Source of the DNA: Methyloglobulus sp.
GTDB taxonomy: Bacteria; Pseudomonadota; Gammaproteobacteria; Methylococcales; Methylomonadaceae
Assembly: GCA_013140405.1 (NCBI GenBank)
Contig: JABFSV010000427.1
Location: forward strand, 1 to 12,550
DNA length: 12,550 nucleotides
Direction of reading: 5' to 3'
In this document: positions 5,250 through 11,054 of the stretch, one piece after another
Numbering within the stretch: position 1 is the stretch's first letter
How the letters are laid out: every line of letters begins with the position of its first letter
Notes under the pieces: model-generated
The model's database searches: none
What the model was told of the DNA's origin: nothing
The model's input: only the letters and a program-made list of their open reading frames with translations
Program-made: the position numbers and the translations under genes

Positions 5250-6854
5250 TTATTCCGTACTTTTTAGTACGGGGACTGCGCCAATAAGTTTTTGTGTGTA
5301 GGCGTGTTTTGGTTTAAAAAGCACTTGTTCTACACTGTTTTGCTCTATTATTTTACCTTGGTACATCACCGCCACGTCATCAGCGATTTCAGCAACTACC
5401 GCGAGGTCGTGGGTAATAAACAAATAGCTGATGCCCTGTTCCTTTTGTAAGGTCTTGAGTAGTTGGATAATTTGAGCTTGCACAGAGACATCCAGCGCAC
5501 TGGTTGGCTCATCACAAACAATCAATTTCGGGCGCACCGCCAAGGCACGGGCGATACAAATACGCTGCCGTTGACCGCCAGAAAACTCATGCGGATAACG
5601 CAGCGCCGAATCTTCCGGCAAACCGACTTGCTCAAGCAAGTTCCGCACTCGTGATTTGCGGTCTGTTGTATTGACATCAGGGTGCAACGCCTTCAAGCCT
5701 TCTGCGATAATGTCGCCCACCAGCATTCTTGGATTCATCGACGAGAACGGATCCTGGAAAATGATCTGCATATTAGTGCGTTGTTTCCGTAGCAGTTCGC
5801 CTTCCAATCCACCCAAATCAAGGCCATTAATTTTGACTGACCCGAAACCGCCGGGAATCAAATTGAGCAAACTCTTCCCCAACGTGGTTTTGCCACAACC
5901 CGATTCACCGACCAATGCCAGCGTTTTACTTTGTTGGATTTCAAAACTTACGTCATCGACAGCCCGCACATAGCCGACGGTACGTTTGAACAAGCCCTTA
6001 CGGATTGGATAATAGCAATGGAAATCATTAACCTGTAACAATGGTGGTTTTTCTTCGGGGCTATGATTTAAGCAGCTTTGCATTGATGGCAAGGCATTAA
6101 GTAACTTAAGGGTATACGGGTGCTTGGCATGGCTAAACAGTTCAACTGATGATGCGGTTTCAACAATTTTGCCCTGCTGCATCACGGCGACCCGATCCGC
6201 CATTGTGGAAACCAGTGCCAGATCATGGCTAATCAGCCAAAGTGCCATGCCTGTTTTCTGCTGGATGTTTTTCAGTAAAGCCAATATTTGCGCCTGAATG
6301 GTTACATCCAGGGAAGTCGTGGGTTCATCTGCAATCAATAACTCCGGCTTCCCCGCCAAGGCGATTGCTATCATCACCCGTTGTCGTTGACCGCCAGATA
6401 GTTGATGCGGGTAATCCCTGATTCTCTGTTGCGGCCCGGGGATTTCAACTTGTTGTAATAATTCTAAAACACGCAATTGCGTGTCATTTTTGGACAAGGG
6501 CAGATGTTGTTGAATGGCTTCTGCGATTTGCTCACCAACTGTCATAACCGGATTCAGTGACGACATGGGATCCTGGAAGATCAAGCCGATACGCCGTCCA
6601 CGAATCTTGCACAGCTCTAACTCTGGCAGTTTCAGTAAGTTATCGCCTTGCAAACTGATAGACGTGGCGCTCAGAGAAGCATTATTAGGCAATAACCTTA
6701 GCACTGATAACGCAGTAATGGATTTTCCAGAACCCGACTCGCCCACTAAGGCAAAGGTTTCGCCTGGGTAAATGTCAAAGCTGATCTCATCAACAACCCG
6801 ATTTTTCTGGTCAAAGCTAACACTTAAATTACTGATGGATAACAAAGGGATCAT
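5250..6854 (-). CDS. Peptide ABC transporter ATP-binding protein, fused double NBD (YejF/DppDF type)
   Basis: This 534-residue protein carries two complete ABC ATPase domains in tandem and would power a peptide importer at the inner membrane. Domain 1 shows Walker A GESGSGKS (38-45), Q-loop FQDP (93-96), signature LSGGQRQ (152-158), Walker B LLIADEP (172-178) and the switch histidine H210. Domain 2 shows GESGCGKTT (316-324), IFQDP (365-369), FSGGQRQ (424-430), LIVCDEP (444-450) and H482. Each domain ends with the oligopeptide-type tail (HPYTLKLLNALP at 245-256, HAYTQKLIGAVP at 517-528). Length and fusion match E. coli YejF (529 residues). The ATG directly follows the TAA of the DUF4276 gene, and a Shine-Dalgarno AGGGAG lies seven bases upstream inside that gene. 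The natural partner is the DppC-type permease at 8895-10244, now separated from it by three genes. Confidence 0.96.
   Translation of the reverse strand: MIPLLSISNLSVSFDQKNRVVDEISFDIYPGETFALVGESGSGKSITALSVLRLLPNNASLSATSISLQGDNLLKLPELELCKIRGRRIGLIFQDPMSSLNPVMTVGEQIAEAIQQHLPLSKNDTQLRVLELLQQVEIPGPQQRIRDYPHQLSGGQRQRVMIAIALAGKPELLIADEPTTSLDVTIQAQILALLKNIQQKTGMALWLISHDLALVSTMADRVAVMQQGKIVETASSVELFSHAKHPYTLKLLNALPSMQSCLNHSPEEKPPLLQVNDFHCYYPIRKGLFKRTVGYVRAVDDVSFEIQQSKTLALVGESGCGKTTLGKSLLNLIPGGFGSVKINGLDLGGLEGELLRKQRTNMQIIFQDPFSSMNPRMLVGDIIAEGLKALHPDVNTTDRKSRVRNLLEQVGLPEDSALRYPHEFSGGQRQRICIARALAVRPKLIVCDEPTSALDVSVQAQIIQLLKTLQKEQGISYLFITHDLAVVAEIADDVAVMYQGKIIEQNSVEQVLFKPKHAYTQKLIGAVPVLKSTE
5255..5272. 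terminator. Inverted repeat at the convergent gene ends (weak terminator candidate)
   Basis: CCGTAC and GTACGG pair perfectly around TTTTTA. The hairpin overlaps the last codons of the minus-strand ABC ATPase and lies 15 bases after the stop of the plus-strand ExeA-type ATPase. It could act on transcripts from either side. Neither side has a T-run after the stem, so classical intrinsic termination is not supported. Confidence 0.3.
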
Positions 6855-7535
6855 TTATGCGCTCCCTAACTGATTCAACTGTTGATACCATTCAGAAAAG
6901 TGCTTACATTGCTCACACAAGTTATTTATTCCAATGCTTTGAATCGCAAGTGGACCATGAAGCGTCTTTCGGTACTTAATCTTGGTTAAATGATTTTCAA
7001 GTTGTTTTGAAGGCTTTGTATCGTAACCATCATTAATATGCTCTGGGGTGGGAAAAGAATTTCTAACGGTTTGTAATGCGGCTAATGATCGCCTCCAATC
7101 AGTTTCGAATTCAATTAATTTTTGAATATCAGTAAACAATAAACCTTCAAATTCATAAGGCTGGATATATGGTATAAATCGTTCCGAAAATAGGTGGTTT
7201 TCTTGAGCAATGTCTTGTTTGAATTCGCTCTCTAAGTAAGCTACTTTTTGATAAACGTCAACAATTGTTTGGCTTTCCACAAAGCGTGGGAATTCATTAT
7301 CTAATGCGTACAAATCAAAAAAGGTGGTGACGACGGTTTCTGTTTCCTCTTTCAAGCAATTCAAAATAAAACGTTTTACGCGAAAATAACTTAATGCACC
7401 ACCTTTATGCCCTTTAGTTGTCGGGACTAATCGCGCAGTTAAATAAATATGTTGATGGGCTAACAGAGGTGCAATAACGTCTCGAATAAAGGTTTCTTCG
7501 GTTTGACCTTCGCAAACAACAATCACCCTAATCAT
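6855..7535 (-). CDS. DUF4276 family protein (TOPRIM-like), partner of the AAA ATPase
   Basis: This 226-residue protein matches the DUF4276 pattern by eye. It has VVCEGQTEE at the N-terminus (residues 6-14, acidic E9, E13 and E14), then FFDLYALDNEFP (72-83, with D74), then PYEFEGLLF (126-134), and HGPLAIQSIGI near the end (193-203). An early glutamate motif plus a later DxY motif is what one expects of a TOPRIM-like metal-binding fold, so a nuclease or nucleotidyl role is possible but inferred. The start is taken at the ATG that overlaps the ATPase stop as ATGA. A longer frame starting at 7571 adds 12 residues with no family match and runs inside the ATPase gene. The stop abuts the ATG of the ABC ATPase. 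Single 60-base lines counted by hand here are 30-38% GC. Together with the ATPase it forms an apparent toxin-effector/sensor pair. Confidence 0.88.
   Translation of the reverse strand: MIRVIVVCEGQTEETFIRDVIAPLLAHQHIYLTARLVPTTKGHKGGALSYFRVKRFILNCLKEETETVVTTFFDLYALDNEFPRFVESQTIVDVYQKVAYLESEFKQDIAQENHLFSERFIPYIQPYEFEGLLFTDIQKLIEFETDWRRSLAALQTVRNSFPTPEHINDGYDTKPSKQLENHLTKIKYRKTLHGPLAIQSIGINNLCEQCKHFSEWYQQLNQLGSA
6862..6867 (-). promoter_or_regulatory. Ribosome binding site of the ABC ATPase inside the DUF4276 gene
   Basis: AGGGAG on the minus strand lies seven bases before the ATG of the fused ABC ATPase and is embedded in the last codons of the DUF4276 gene. It supports the ATG at 6854 as the start. 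It also ties translation of the transporter ATPase to the preceding gene. Confidence 0.7.
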
Positions 7536-8632
7536 CGTGTCGGTCTTCCGCCGATAATGTTTTGTTTCCACAAGTCGCCAAGGCTGTAATCTTCCAGCCA
7601 GTCTTTTAATTGCTCGTCATCAAGGCGTTTGAAGGTAGAGGCATCATCAACCCTATCCACCACAATAATATCGTTAGCGGAGAAATGATTGATAAGTTCG
7701 ACAGATTGCGTGGAAATAATAAGCTGTTTTTGCTCGGCAGCCCTTTTAATTAAATCTGCCAGGACAGCAAGCCCATAAGGGTGTAAGCCTAATTCTGGTT
7801 CGTCAATCAATACCGTATCGGTCATCAAACTAAACGGCTGTAATAAGAGTGTTGCCAAACAAATAAAGCGTAATGTTCCGTCTGATAAAACATGGGCTTT
7901 AAAGGGGGTATCTGGATTGCCAACTTCAGTCCATTCAAGTTGAATGTGTTCTTCGCCTTCCCTCAATACAAAATCTGCGAAAAAAGGGGCAACCAGACGA
8001 ATGGTTTTGACAATTTGCTGATAATTTTCGGGAAATTTAAGTTTTAGTTTTAATAAAAAGGCAGCTAGATTTCCAGCGTCAGTTTTGAGTTTTAAATTGT
8101 CGTTGATTGCATGTATATGTTTAACAAATGCCGTATCGCTTGTATCGTGAAAATGATAAATACGCCAACTTTCAATAGCTGGCTTTATAAACTCCGCGTA
8201 TTTATGATTCGATTTTTTAAGCACTGCTTCAATATGTCCGCGAGCTATTACTGTCGATGAGGGATATCGAGGTGTACCATCCCAAGCAATATAGCCCGTA
8301 AACATTAGTTTTTCTTGTTCAAAAACCAATCTATTATCAAGAGTTGGTATTAATGTGAATTCATAACCATTCACGTCAAAATAAAAACCCATGCTAATTT
8401 GCTTAGTTTTTTTTCGGCCATAATTCAACAATGCATCTGCACCGCCATTTTCTGGCACATAAACTTGCAAACGTTGTTCATACATTTGTGCAAGTAGTTT
8501 AAACACCGAAATAAAATTACTTTTCCCTGCCCCATTAGCACCCAAAAGGATATTCAAATTAGTCAGCTTAAATTGTTCAAGATTTCTAATCGACTTATAA
8601 CCTTGGATGCTAATTTTATTTAATTTAGACAC
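7532..8632 (-). CDS. ABC-type AAA ATPase (AAA_21/SMC-like), first gene of a two-gene cassette
   Basis: This is a 366-residue single-polypeptide ATPase of the RecF/SMC-like class. Its N-terminus ISIQGYKSIRNL (7-18) leads into Walker A GANGAGKSN (31-39). A roughly 200-residue insertion of beta hairpins and helices follows, then the ABC signature LSDGTLRF (249-256), Walker B plus D-loop VLIDEPELGLHP (274-285) and the switch motif IISTQS (305-310). All catalytic elements look intact. It has no fused TOPRIM domain, unlike one-chain OLD nucleases; the next gene, overlapping by ATGA, supplies a TOPRIM-like DUF4276 protein instead. The start is a GTG preceded by GGAAGGA at close spacing. A nine-codon frame with a better ribosome binding site overlaps this start. 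The gene is AT-rich (28-30% GC in two hand-counted lines), which suggests transfer. A role in phage defence or DNA-damage sensing is a hypothesis. Confidence 0.92.
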   Translation of the reverse strand: MSKLNKISIQGYKSIRNLEQFKLTNLNILLGANGAGKSNFISVFKLLAQMYEQRLQVYVPENGGADALLNYGRKKTKQISMGFYFDVNGYEFTLIPTLDNRLVFEQEKLMFTGYIAWDGTPRYPSSTVIARGHIEAVLKKSNHKYAEFIKPAIESWRIYHFHDTSDTAFVKHIHAINDNLKLKTDAGNLAAFLLKLKLKFPENYQQIVKTIRLVAPFFADFVLREGEEHIQLEWTEVGNPDTPFKAHVLSDGTLRFICLATLLLQPFSLMTDTVLIDEPELGLHPYGLAVLADLIKRAAEQKQLIISTQSVELINHFSANDIIVVDRVDDASTFKRLDDEQLKDWLEDYSLGDLWKQNIIGGRPTR

Positions 8633-8660
8633 ATTCCTTCCGTTCTTTAGTCATGTTGAA

Positions 8661-8668
8661 CTCCCCTC
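8661..8668 (-). promoter_or_regulatory. Strong Shine-Dalgarno serving a nine-codon leader frame before the AAA ATPase
   Basis: GAGGGGAG on the minus strand lies six bases before an ATG at 8654. That ATG opens a frame of only nine codons ending with TAA at 8627-8625, which overlaps the GTG start of the ATPase. It may be a coupling leader, or a leftover start of the gene that used to follow here. Confidence 0.4.
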
Positions 8669-8671
8669 AGA

Positions 8672-8911
8672 TCAAAGCCATCCGGGTAACCAGCAAGTGC
8701 TGTCTTTCAACGCCTGCCACTTCATTTCATACTCTTGCTTGGTCAGCACCGCTTCGACTGTACACGTTACAATAATGCCGTACTCATCTTCGTTAACACG
8801 GGTCACCAAAAAATGCTTTTCCTTGTTGCGAGGAACTGTAGCCGTCCATTTACTCAACAATAATTTAGCAGGATTGATTTGATTACTGGCTGATTTATTC
8901 GCTGGCTTCAT
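8672..8911 (-). CDS. Small Trp-rich protein, TIGR02450 family
   Basis: This 79-residue protein matches what I remember of the TIGR02450 Trp-rich family. The core INPAKLLLSKWTA (residues 12-24) is followed by NKEKHFLVT (29-37), then EAVLTK (53-58), and W65, W74 and W78 in the closing WQALKD and WLPGWL segments. Family function is unknown. It has no signal peptide and no membrane segment, so it is probably cytosolic. The ATG lies inside the end of the permease gene (17-base overlap) and is preceded at eight bases by a strong GAGGAG, so translation is likely coupled to the permease. One hand-counted 60-base line is 50% GC, like the permease and unlike the next two genes, so it probably belongs to the older operon. 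Its presence inside a peptide-transporter operon is unusual. Confidence 0.85.
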   Translation of the reverse strand: MKPANKSASNQINPAKLLLSKWTATVPRNKEKHFLVTRVNEDEYGIIVTCTVEAVLTKQEYEMKWQALKDSTCWLPGWL

Positions 8912-10244
8912 TAGTCATACTCCTCGGATCAAATGCATCCTGAACCACGTCAGCAAATAAATTAGCCGCCAGCACCAAGGCAAACATGAATACAAAAGCT
9001 GCTGATAAAGACCACCACACAATCGGTTCACGTGCCATTTCCAGACGGGCGCCATTAATCATATTGCCCCAGCTATAGGTCGTCGGGTCAACACCGATGT
9101 TGATATACGACAATACCGCTTCCGCCAACACCAAAGAACTGAAGTCTAACACCACGGAAATTAATACGATGTGCATAACATTCGGCAAAATATGGCGTAA
9201 CAAAATTGTATGTTGTTTTACACCTAATGCGTACGCCGCTTGCACATATTCCATTTCCCTGAGTTTTAAAGTTTCCGCCCGAAGCAAGCGGCATAAGCCG
9301 GTCCAACTGGTTACGCCTAGAATCATACAAAGGAACAGCAAGCGCATATCAGCACGGACAATCAAGCTGGTAAACTCGGCTTCATGATTTGCCATGTACA
9401 CTTGCACCATCAACACAGATGCAGCTATCAGCAATACGCCGGGAATGGAATTGAGAGTGGTGTACATGTATTGGATGACATCATCAACCCAGCCCCGAAA
9501 AAATCCGGCAAGAATGCCGAACAGGATAGCCATTGGCAGCATGATTAGCGTCGTCAACGTACCAATGACCAGGCCAGTACGGATGCTTTTGATGGCTTGG
9601 TAAAACACATCCTCGCCGACTTTATCCGTACCCAAGACGTGATAATACAGTGAAAGATAGCCCGAGATTGTGCTTAAAACGATAATAATGAATAACGTCA
9701 CCATGACTGGGCGCATGGTAAAAAACTGGGGCGCTGAACTGTGTTTTAGGTAACTAACGCCAGCAGATAAAAGCAAAAATGCCGTGAACAGGGCTAAACC
9801 TTGCAAAAATCCGATTCCAGCTTTTAGCATAATATCGGATACCTGCTGTTTTTCTGGATCATCCAAATGTTTACCGCCATAAACCTGGCGTGGATAATCC
9901 CATTGCATACTGCCATCTTTTTCAACCATCTCCTTGCTATACAAGGTCGTCGCAAACGGTGCTGAATACGTTTTCTCGTTATGCTCCCGCAGCGGCGTGG
10001 CACAATAATCCAATAGGCTGATAATCTCGCTAGAGTTTTCTTGATTTGACTTGAAATGGATGGAGTCCAAAAGCCCGATTAACAGGAAGAATACCAGCAC
10101 AACCAGCGACACCATGCCCACTTTGCTGCGGACAATCTTATTGAGTGGACGTTGAATGTGTTCCTTATCATGCAAGTAAAACCCAATTCCTATTGAGCTA
10201 AACAATAACAGCAAGATCAAGGCATCAGTCCACAATATAATCAT
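8895..10244 (-). CDS. Peptide ABC transporter permease (DppC/YejE type, extended N-terminus)
   Basis: This 449-residue inner-membrane permease belongs to the binding-protein-dependent (BPD_transp_1) class. Membrane segments lie at about residues 5-24 and 43-61. A hydrophilic, probably periplasmic loop (about 62-138) follows, with further segments at about 143-163 and 178-200 and then the core permease domain (about 220-432). LGTDKVGEDVF (204-214) is the conserved DppC-type stretch before the core. The EAA coupling loop is at 332-355 (AAYALGVKQHTILLRHILPN), and the C-terminus carries DAFDPR. It is longer than YejE or DppC (about 300-340 residues) because of the N-terminal pair of helices and the loop. 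The partner ATPase is the fused protein at 5250-6854. No DppB-type permease or solute-binding protein is present next to it in this window. The ATG overlaps the TGA of a 20-codon upstream frame as ATGA. Confidence 0.95.
   Translation of the reverse strand: MIILWTDALILLLLFSSIGIGFYLHDKEHIQRPLNKIVRSKVGMVSLVVLVFFLLIGLLDSIHFKSNQENSSEIISLLDYCATPLREHNEKTYSAPFATTLYSKEMVEKDGSMQWDYPRQVYGGKHLDDPEKQQVSDIMLKAGIGFLQGLALFTAFLLLSAGVSYLKHSSAPQFFTMRPVMVTLFIIIVLSTISGYLSLYYHVLGTDKVGEDVFYQAIKSIRTGLVIGTLTTLIMLPMAILFGILAGFFRGWVDDVIQYMYTTLNSIPGVLLIAASVLMVQVYMANHEAEFTSLIVRADMRLLFLCMILGVTSWTGLCRLLRAETLKLREMEYVQAAYALGVKQHTILLRHILPNVMHIVLISVVLDFSSLVLAEAVLSYINIGVDPTTYSWGNMINGARLEMAREPIVWWSLSAAFVFMFALVLAANLFADVVQDAFDPRSMTNEASE
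8920..8925 (-). promoter_or_regulatory. Ribosome binding site of the Trp-rich protein within the permease gene
   Basis: GAGGAG on the minus strand is eight bases upstream of the ATG at 8911 and lies within the last codons of the permease. It decides the start of the small Trp-rich gene. Confidence 0.7.
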
Positions 10245-10334
10245 GATGGCAGCTTACCTTCCTGATTTTGCTTGGCTATGGGCAGATTAATAATGGCTTC
10301 CATTGGATGGGAAAGTGGCCTTAATTAACCAACG

Positions 10335-11054
10335 TCAGGCAAAAATTTCTGCAAAGAAATTTTGCATAGCCTGCCAGGATCGCCTGTCAGCATCAGCCTG
10401 ATAAACCGTGCCAAAATCAGGATTATTGGCAACAGAATTGGTGAAAGCGTGGACAGTATGACCATAGGAAACAAACTGCCAGTCCGCTCCTGCTTGGGTC
10501 ATTTCTTCCTGGAAGGCAAGCACTTGTTCCGGCAGTCCCATCGGATCGTCGCGGCCATGTAAGGCTAGGACTTTTGCCTTGATTTTATTGCCTTGGGTGT
10601 TGTCTGGTGCGCCGAGCAAGCCGTGAAAACTGACCACACCTTTTATATCAACACCCGTCCTTGCCAAATCAAGGACACATAAGCCGCCAAAACAAAAGCC
10701 CATGGCGGCGATTTTTTTGTCATCCACCCAAGGCAATAAACTAACGGCATTAAGGGCGGTTTTTATGCGTTTTTGTAATTTCTCGCGGTCCGCCATAAAA
10801 GGCTGCATCAGTGTGGCATTTTCTTCCTTGTCCGCACCCAATATGCCTTTGCCATACATATCAAGGGCAAAACCAACGTAACCTAATCCGGCTAGTTTTC
10901 TGGCTTTATCGGCGACAAAACCATCCCTGCCGCCCCACGCATGGCTGATTAGGACTGCGGGCCGTCGGGCTGAAACGCTATCATCAAAAGCAAAAAAAGC
11001 TTCAAGGACGGTATCTTCGTCCATGTATACAACGGTGTTTTCAACGATAGCCAT
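10335..11054 (-). CDS. Dienelactone hydrolase family protein
   Basis: This is a 239-residue alpha/beta-hydrolase of the dienelactone hydrolase family, soluble and without a signal peptide. The nucleophile elbow GFCFGG places the catalytic cysteine at C121. The acid is D169 or D170 in HGRDDPMG, and the histidine is H202 in GHTVHAFTN. SHAWGG (38-42) forms the oxyanion region. The family hydrolyses lactones and esters; the true substrate cannot be read from the sequence, and many chromosomal members are not part of aromatic degradation. It lies 12 bases after the phosphatase gene and has a Shine-Dalgarno AAGGGGA six bases before its ATG, so the two are very likely cotranscribed. Length is normal for the family. 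Confidence 0.95.
   Translation of the reverse strand: MAIVENTVVYMDEDTVLEAFFAFDDSVSARRPAVLISHAWGGRDGFVADKARKLAGLGYVGFALDMYGKGILGADKEENATLMQPFMADREKLQKRIKTALNAVSLLPWVDDKKIAAMGFCFGGLCVLDLARTGVDIKGVVSFHGLLGAPDNTQGNKIKAKVLALHGRDDPMGLPEQVLAFQEEMTQAGADWQFVSYGHTVHAFTNSVANNPDFGTVYQADADRRSWQAMQNFFAEIFA

Follow-up and report, generated by a model that had tools for sequence, protein, structure and literature searches.

The Hma-embedded candidate (HEC) systems, for which a 2024 preprint by Payne et al. is reportedly the founding source, are candidate anti-phage systems. One of them, HEC-01, is the subject of this work: judged by its sequence matches, it is the pair of an OLD/SMC-type ABC ATPase and a DUF4276 protein encoded in a 12,550-nucleotide stretch of a Methyloglobulus genome (contig JABFSV010000427.1 of GCA_013140405.1; this whole stretch is called the window below). 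Passages of PMC10855318 group HEC under mechanism unknown, passages of PMC12988326 report antiviral activity for several HECs including HEC-06, and HEC-04, an ATPase-TOPRIM fusion, is described as active against T4 and T5 and inactive against T7 and lambda (excerpts of PMC12111858). TOPRIM-linked OLD-ABC ATPases are presented as a broad class of defence operons in the accessible part of PMC12839542. In PARIS, AriA senses a phage trigger, upon which AriB is released as a dimer and cleaves tRNA (parts of PMC12409363); activation of the split OLD-ATPase system WonAB inhibits translation (parts of PMC12137116). HEC-01 itself is listed for one Desulfovibrio strain in the literature excerpts available, is absent from the passages of articles citing the HEC preprint, and no experiments on it were found in the portions of the literature searched, the founding preprint lying outside their scope. 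Nor was any literature on DUF4276 found, in a search without preprints and with few subscription papers.

The original prediction for this DNA, made from sequence alone, had described a complete ATPase without a fused effector followed by an ATGA-overlapping DUF4276 gene, and this description holds. On the minus strand, the ATPase open reading frame (ORF) runs from a GTG start at 8632 to a stop at 7534-7532, and the DUF4276 ORF from an ATG at 7535 to a TAA stop at 6857-6855; for the latter the mechanical ORF list has an earlier GTG (7571), whereas homologue matches start at the ATG. When compared with PADLOC models (E up to 1), the ATPase matched the HEC-01A model PDLC04175 at 3.2e-147 over residues 3-364, with mad3 (3.9e-26), AbiLi (5e-25) and AriA (3.1e-24) as runners-up, and the DUF4276 protein matched the HEC-01B model PDLC04188 at 3.7e-78 over residues 1-224, followed by GajA (0.027) and mad4 (0.048). 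In Pfam, the DUF4276 protein matched PF14103 (6.7e-51) and no family besides DUF4276 at 0.01; the ATPase matched AAA_21 (4.7e-26), and the AbiEii toxin identity suggested by that family's name was rejected because the name is generic. The ATPase contains GANGAGKS with K37, LSDGT and ILIDEPELGLHP, which we take to be the Walker A, signature and Walker B motifs, respectively. The cassette is inserted between the DUF2389 gene and oppDF in a peptide-transporter (opp) operon, which sets it apart from HEC-01 as named; no Hma gene was noticed in the window, where three proteins only were compared with PADLOC. The pair is ordinary in its identity, informative in the predicted fold and active site of its effector, and unusual in its placement within a housekeeping operon.

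The original prediction had also proposed a sensor-effector module related to PARIS or AbiL, with AriB presumably a DUF4435 protein and the AbiL partner presumably RloB-like, as named there. The OLD/SMC-type ATPase with a separate TOPRIM-like protein was borne out, while membership of PARIS or AbiL was not: at E up to 1 no AbiL model matched the DUF4276 protein and AriB was absent from the 7 PADLOC matches, while the scores of the ATPase for AriA and AbiLi given above are far poorer than that for HEC-01A; both assignments were rejected. The likeness to PARIS (AriA plus AriB, class 4 OLD) is instead one of architecture, i.e. an OLD-type ATPase and a TOPRIM nuclease on two adjacent genes (parts of PMC12409363), but here the effector is a DUF4276 protein. 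The pair resembles class 2 OLD proteins and GajA of Gabija in that a TOPRIM fold is predicted and the two-metal residues have counterparts; it differs in having ATPase and TOPRIM on separate chains (one chain in OLD classes 1-3) and, from Gabija, in that no helicase gene adjoins the pair in the window. HEC-04 (IbfA) likewise combines an ABC ATPase with TOPRIM but as a single fused protein (excerpts of PMC12111858), and WonAB of Vibrio cholerae joins an OLD-type ABC ATPase to a separate nuclease (parts of PMC12137116), which is of the restriction-enzyme PD-(D/E)xK kind rather than TOPRIM. The ATPase also resembles Mad3 of MADS, on whose components no literature was found; membership of MADS was not supported, as the ATPase reached 87.2 bits against a 420-bit NCBIfam MAD3 cut-off and the mad4 match of the DUF4276 protein was marginal.

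Structure comparison placed the predicted DUF4276 fold nearest to OLD, and the nearest solved folds with known function were OLD DNases. The fold, proposed earlier to be TOPRIM-like, appears OLD/TOPRIM-like, although its margin over background is moderate only. The positions proposed for E9 (in CEGQTEE, which also holds E13) and D74 (in FFDLY) were correct and the named residues are conserved. All of the OLD two-metal positions have counterparts in the DUF4276 protein, including the OLD-family Glu, except the second Asp of the DxD motif, which reads D-L-Y; at this position (76) Tyr is present in 45 of 46 DUF4276 proteins and His in the remaining one. Bp OLD is described as tolerating single substitutions of its metal ligands in vitro (passages of PMC6755086). 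The predicted active-site residues are invariant within the subfamily. Sequence comparisons were uninformative: against solved structures the DUF4276 sequence gave a single match at 0.61 only and its profile none at E up to 10, and profile-profile comparison with three GajA TOPRIM regions was not significant, one mode of it aligning CEGQTEE with VEGxxE and YEFE with FEFE.

The ATPase-DUF4276 pairing is not a chance association. An ATPase match was present at all 53 loci located via the DUF4276 protein in named genomes, the two genes were on the same strand at 46/46 loci checked, and in 28 of these 46 the distance to where the DUF4276 alignment begins corresponded to a 4-nucleotide overlap (alignments A1 and A2 covered 45 and 34 of the 53 loci, and the gap table 46). 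When 398 genomes of the phylum were searched with PF14103, 65 had a match, and the ATPase adjoined the PF14103 gene at 28 of 29 newly fetched loci; the one locus lacking it begins 162 bases from a contig end. The fetched loci were the best-scoring ones, at most 30 per search, and not a random sample. Homologues thus do not occur singly; invariably single homologues had been named beforehand as evidence against the proposed module. PF14103 was absent from 14 well-known control genomes. DUF4276 relatives occurred on 12 of 72,556 plasmid records, in none of 50,697 phage records and at two places in viral contigs (one a fragment). The host is probably a methanotroph of the Methylococcales, since the same-family genome G017 carries the locus of Methylotuvimicrobium buryatense 5G (L007 and L047 share DNA) and the best named relatives are in Methylobacter, Methylomonas and similar genera. 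A second HEC-01 pair lies elsewhere in the same genome (contig C271, positions 6525-9243 of locus L159), with an effector 32-36% identical, flanked by genes for a ParE-like toxin and a CopG-like protein.

Taken together, the pair is probably a split OLD-type module in which a sensor ATPase controls a detached TOPRIM nuclease; sensing, nuclease activity, substrate and a role in defence are what we infer for it. The SMC-head-like ATPase would dimerise with ATP and keep the TOPRIM protein inactive or unassembled; an infection cue sensed by the ATPase would release or activate the TOPRIM protein, which would then cut nucleic acid by two-metal catalysis (predicted ligands E9, E13, D74, E128 and E130, with K190 near the scissile phosphate), and this cleavage would stop the infected cell. 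E13 and K190 are less conserved across the wider family, which slightly lowers our confidence in this reading. As to the substrate, we lean slightly towards RNA or tRNA over DNA, because PARIS and WonAB, the two split OLD-ATPase systems whose cellular effect the available passages describe, hit translation. A DNA target (phage or plasmid DNA being nicked or degraded, as by OLD and Gabija) within the same architecture is nevertheless a serious, if less favoured, possibility whose share overlaps that of the split-module reading: the OLD DNases are the nearest folds of known function and all but one of the two-metal positions have counterparts, whereas Y76 replaces the second Asp and, in the parts of the sources available, the targets of AriAB and WonAB are tRNA or translation.

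That the pair is solely a selfish, addiction-type (toxin-antitoxin-like) module, in which a TOPRIM toxin is neutralised by the ATPase and the unit is maintained in operons with no benefit to the cell, appears rather unlikely; the coupled, patchily distributed two-gene cassette, its occurrence on the 12 plasmid records and the second copy between ParE-like and CopG-like genes are consistent with it, while some relatives adjoin Type I restriction genes and PARIS, a pair of similar build, functions in defence (parts of PMC12409363). Least probable is a housekeeping partnership with the opp transporter or with cell physiology, like that of the archaeal OLD protein Cran1 in the cell cycle, since the cassette is absent from the opp junction in four same-genus genomes and relatives occupy unrelated junctions, even though non-defensive OLD proteins exist (passages of PMC12796447) and the oppC|oppDF junction carries this subfamily in three genomes and a divergent one in two. 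We consider both of these less likely than a sensor ATPase with a TOPRIM nuclease. On that preferred reading, a named system that is uncharacterised in the accessible literature gains a testable effector fold, active site and closest enzyme family.

Table 1. Cassette genes and surrounding features of the opp operon in the window.
Feature	Positions	Strand	Basis
oppDF-like fused ABC transporter ATP-binding protein	5250..6854	-	ATG (6854) abuts DUF4276 stop (TAAATG)
HEC-01B, DUF4276 protein, predicted TOPRIM nuclease, 226 residues	6855..7535	-	ORF complete
ATGA overlap, ATPase stop / DUF4276 start	7532..7535	-	sequence; same 4-nucleotide spacing in 28/46 relatives
HEC-01A, OLD/SMC-type ABC ATPase, 366 residues, without fused effector	7532..8632	-	ORF complete
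39-nucleotide gap from DUF2389 stop to ATPase GTG, with AAGGA ribosome-binding-like site	8633..8671	-	sequence
DUF2389/TIGR02450 Trp-rich protein, host gene upstream of cassette	8672..8911	-	immediately precedes oppDF in 4 same-genus genomes
oppC-like ABC permease, gene of the host operon	8895..10244	-	PF00528; best NCBIfam Opp4C, under cut-off

The cassette would be transcribed from the host operon promoter. In a scan of positions 6600-10400 the gap upstream of the ATPase contained no promoter-like or terminator-like site; over the whole region promoter-like sites were not above shuffles (6 against a shuffle mean of 9.5), whereas terminator-like sites were (9 against 3.7, sd 2.1). Two of the latter lie on the minus strand inside oppC, upstream of the ATPase gene, and could weaken read-through if they are real. 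Visual inspection of the window junctions revealed no target-site duplication, and the repeat scan found no repeat pair at the two cassette ends. A misplaced contig was considered, as the window is the whole of contig C242 and genome contamination is 4.97%, and was ruled out by the identities to same-genus genomes (82-86% for oppDF and up to 94% for exeA). The gene at 5250-6854 fuses OppD and OppF homologues, its best NCBIfam matches, YejF and GsiA, being under their cut-offs. At the contig end (11937-12547) lies a C-terminal sequence in two overlapping frames that we take to be PurL-like.

Among the 30 oppDF loci scoring best in the family, the window accounts for one. In four others, from same-genus genomes, the order is oppC-DUF2389-oppDF with no cassette; oppC immediately precedes oppDF in a further nine, and 16 showed no oppC within the available flank. 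In one of the four cassette-free same-genus genomes DUF2389 aligns in two pieces. The oppC|oppDF junction also carries related cassettes in a Methylococcales metagenome-assembled genome (L014) and in Methylomonas sp. WSC-6 (L015), and other cassettes are found at obgE|proB, after trpC and at ilvD|argA, where argA is the probable identity of a kinase-domain gene that matches PF00696. In a search of 201 genomes of the family, 14, window included, had a DUF4276 protein at least 60% identical to that of the window; 12 of these cassettes adjoin genes of the four places and two lie elsewhere. One of these 12 cassettes, at L199 (same DNA as L022), is before proB but after a gene other than obgE. Of the 30 best-scoring proB loci, 26 are empty with obgE and proB adjacent, two carry this cassette, one carries a Uma2-family gene and one could not be judged. 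The Uma2-family gene, a putative restriction endonuclease, occupies 2715-3290 of L137. At L016 and L019 about 300 nucleotides, apparently encoding a short membrane protein (by eye), separate ilvD from the cassette.

A tree of 23 ATPases followed insertion site closely (7 changes over 8 labels, the minimum being 7; none of 200 shuffles was as low), although support for the opp group of three was weak (59/85), and one row with a separately labelled site interrupted each of the ilvD and obgE groups. Within one subfamily this looks like a few insertions per site followed by descent or exchange. Across subfamilies, the oppC|oppDF gap of genome G033 holds a different ATPase and DUF4276-like pair (HEC-01 models PDLC04182 at 9.8e-197 and PDLC04205 at 2.4e-92), whose effector only just reaches PF14103 (30.3 bits against a 30.2 cut-off) and did not match P0001 by BLAST (E up to 10), and whose ATPase is 28% identical to that of the window over 128 residues only. 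G609, too, has a relative of this pair (ATPase 57%, effector 44%) in its oppC|oppDF gap, with oppDF aligning in two frames; the two loci belong to the 16 best of that type. A second junction, before a gene starting like MPKT-IQLATGTLHL (presumptively the PRTase_2/TRSP gene, found for two of the 77 neighbours described below), carries both types, one at four loci and the other at two (survey of cassette places: 41 loci; L178-L191 and L212-L215 left out). Two weakly similar subfamilies at oppC|oppDF in different genera would mean that the junction itself, and not descent alone, attracts such units; in-place exchange via flank recombination could mimic this meeting.

We propose, tentatively, that methanotroph HEC-01 cassettes are recombinase-free operon hitch-hikers, i.e. 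promoterless two-gene defence units that may enter gaps in co-directional housekeeping genes' operons, leave the genes unbroken, borrow a promoter and re-use preferred junctions. If junctions are indeed preferred, cassette movement without a visible recombinase becomes a concrete question. Conserved housekeeping operons are also places that defence-island searches would miss; a narrow search, which proves little, found no literature joining 'anti-phage' with 'housekeeping operon'.

Housekeeping context had also been named beforehand as evidence against a defence role; it applies to the window and its close relatives, while in some other genomes the setting is a restriction operon. The neighbour scan took the nearest mechanical ORFs (90-1500 residues) at 39 of the 53 loci, giving 77 proteins; it omitted L014 and L015, whose opp genes were already known, and L017, L029, L032, L039, L040, L045, L047, L057, L060, L061, L063 and L064. 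Six matched Type I restriction enzymes and five a specificity subunit in PADLOC (first 25 of 201 families), and Pfam gave T1RH-like_C for 7, HSDR_N for 6, AA_kinase for 7 and other housekeeping families for 3 each. The pair at L027 has HsdS before it and HsdR after it, one gene intervening. These results indicate that outside the close relatives of the window the pair is sometimes part of restriction operons, as the HEC name suggests.

Some cassettes differ in integrity or number. The trpC-linked DUF4276 gene of Methylotuvimicrobium buryatense 5G (L047, 9965-10683) is in two overlapping frames, as is that of another Methylotuvimicrobium genome (L203), and these are possibly broken copies; at the same trpC site in L012 the gene is in one frame. 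In genome G140 (contig C1, about 1174268-1176704; L169 and L202), two different HEC-01 cassettes apparently lie in tandem on one strand.
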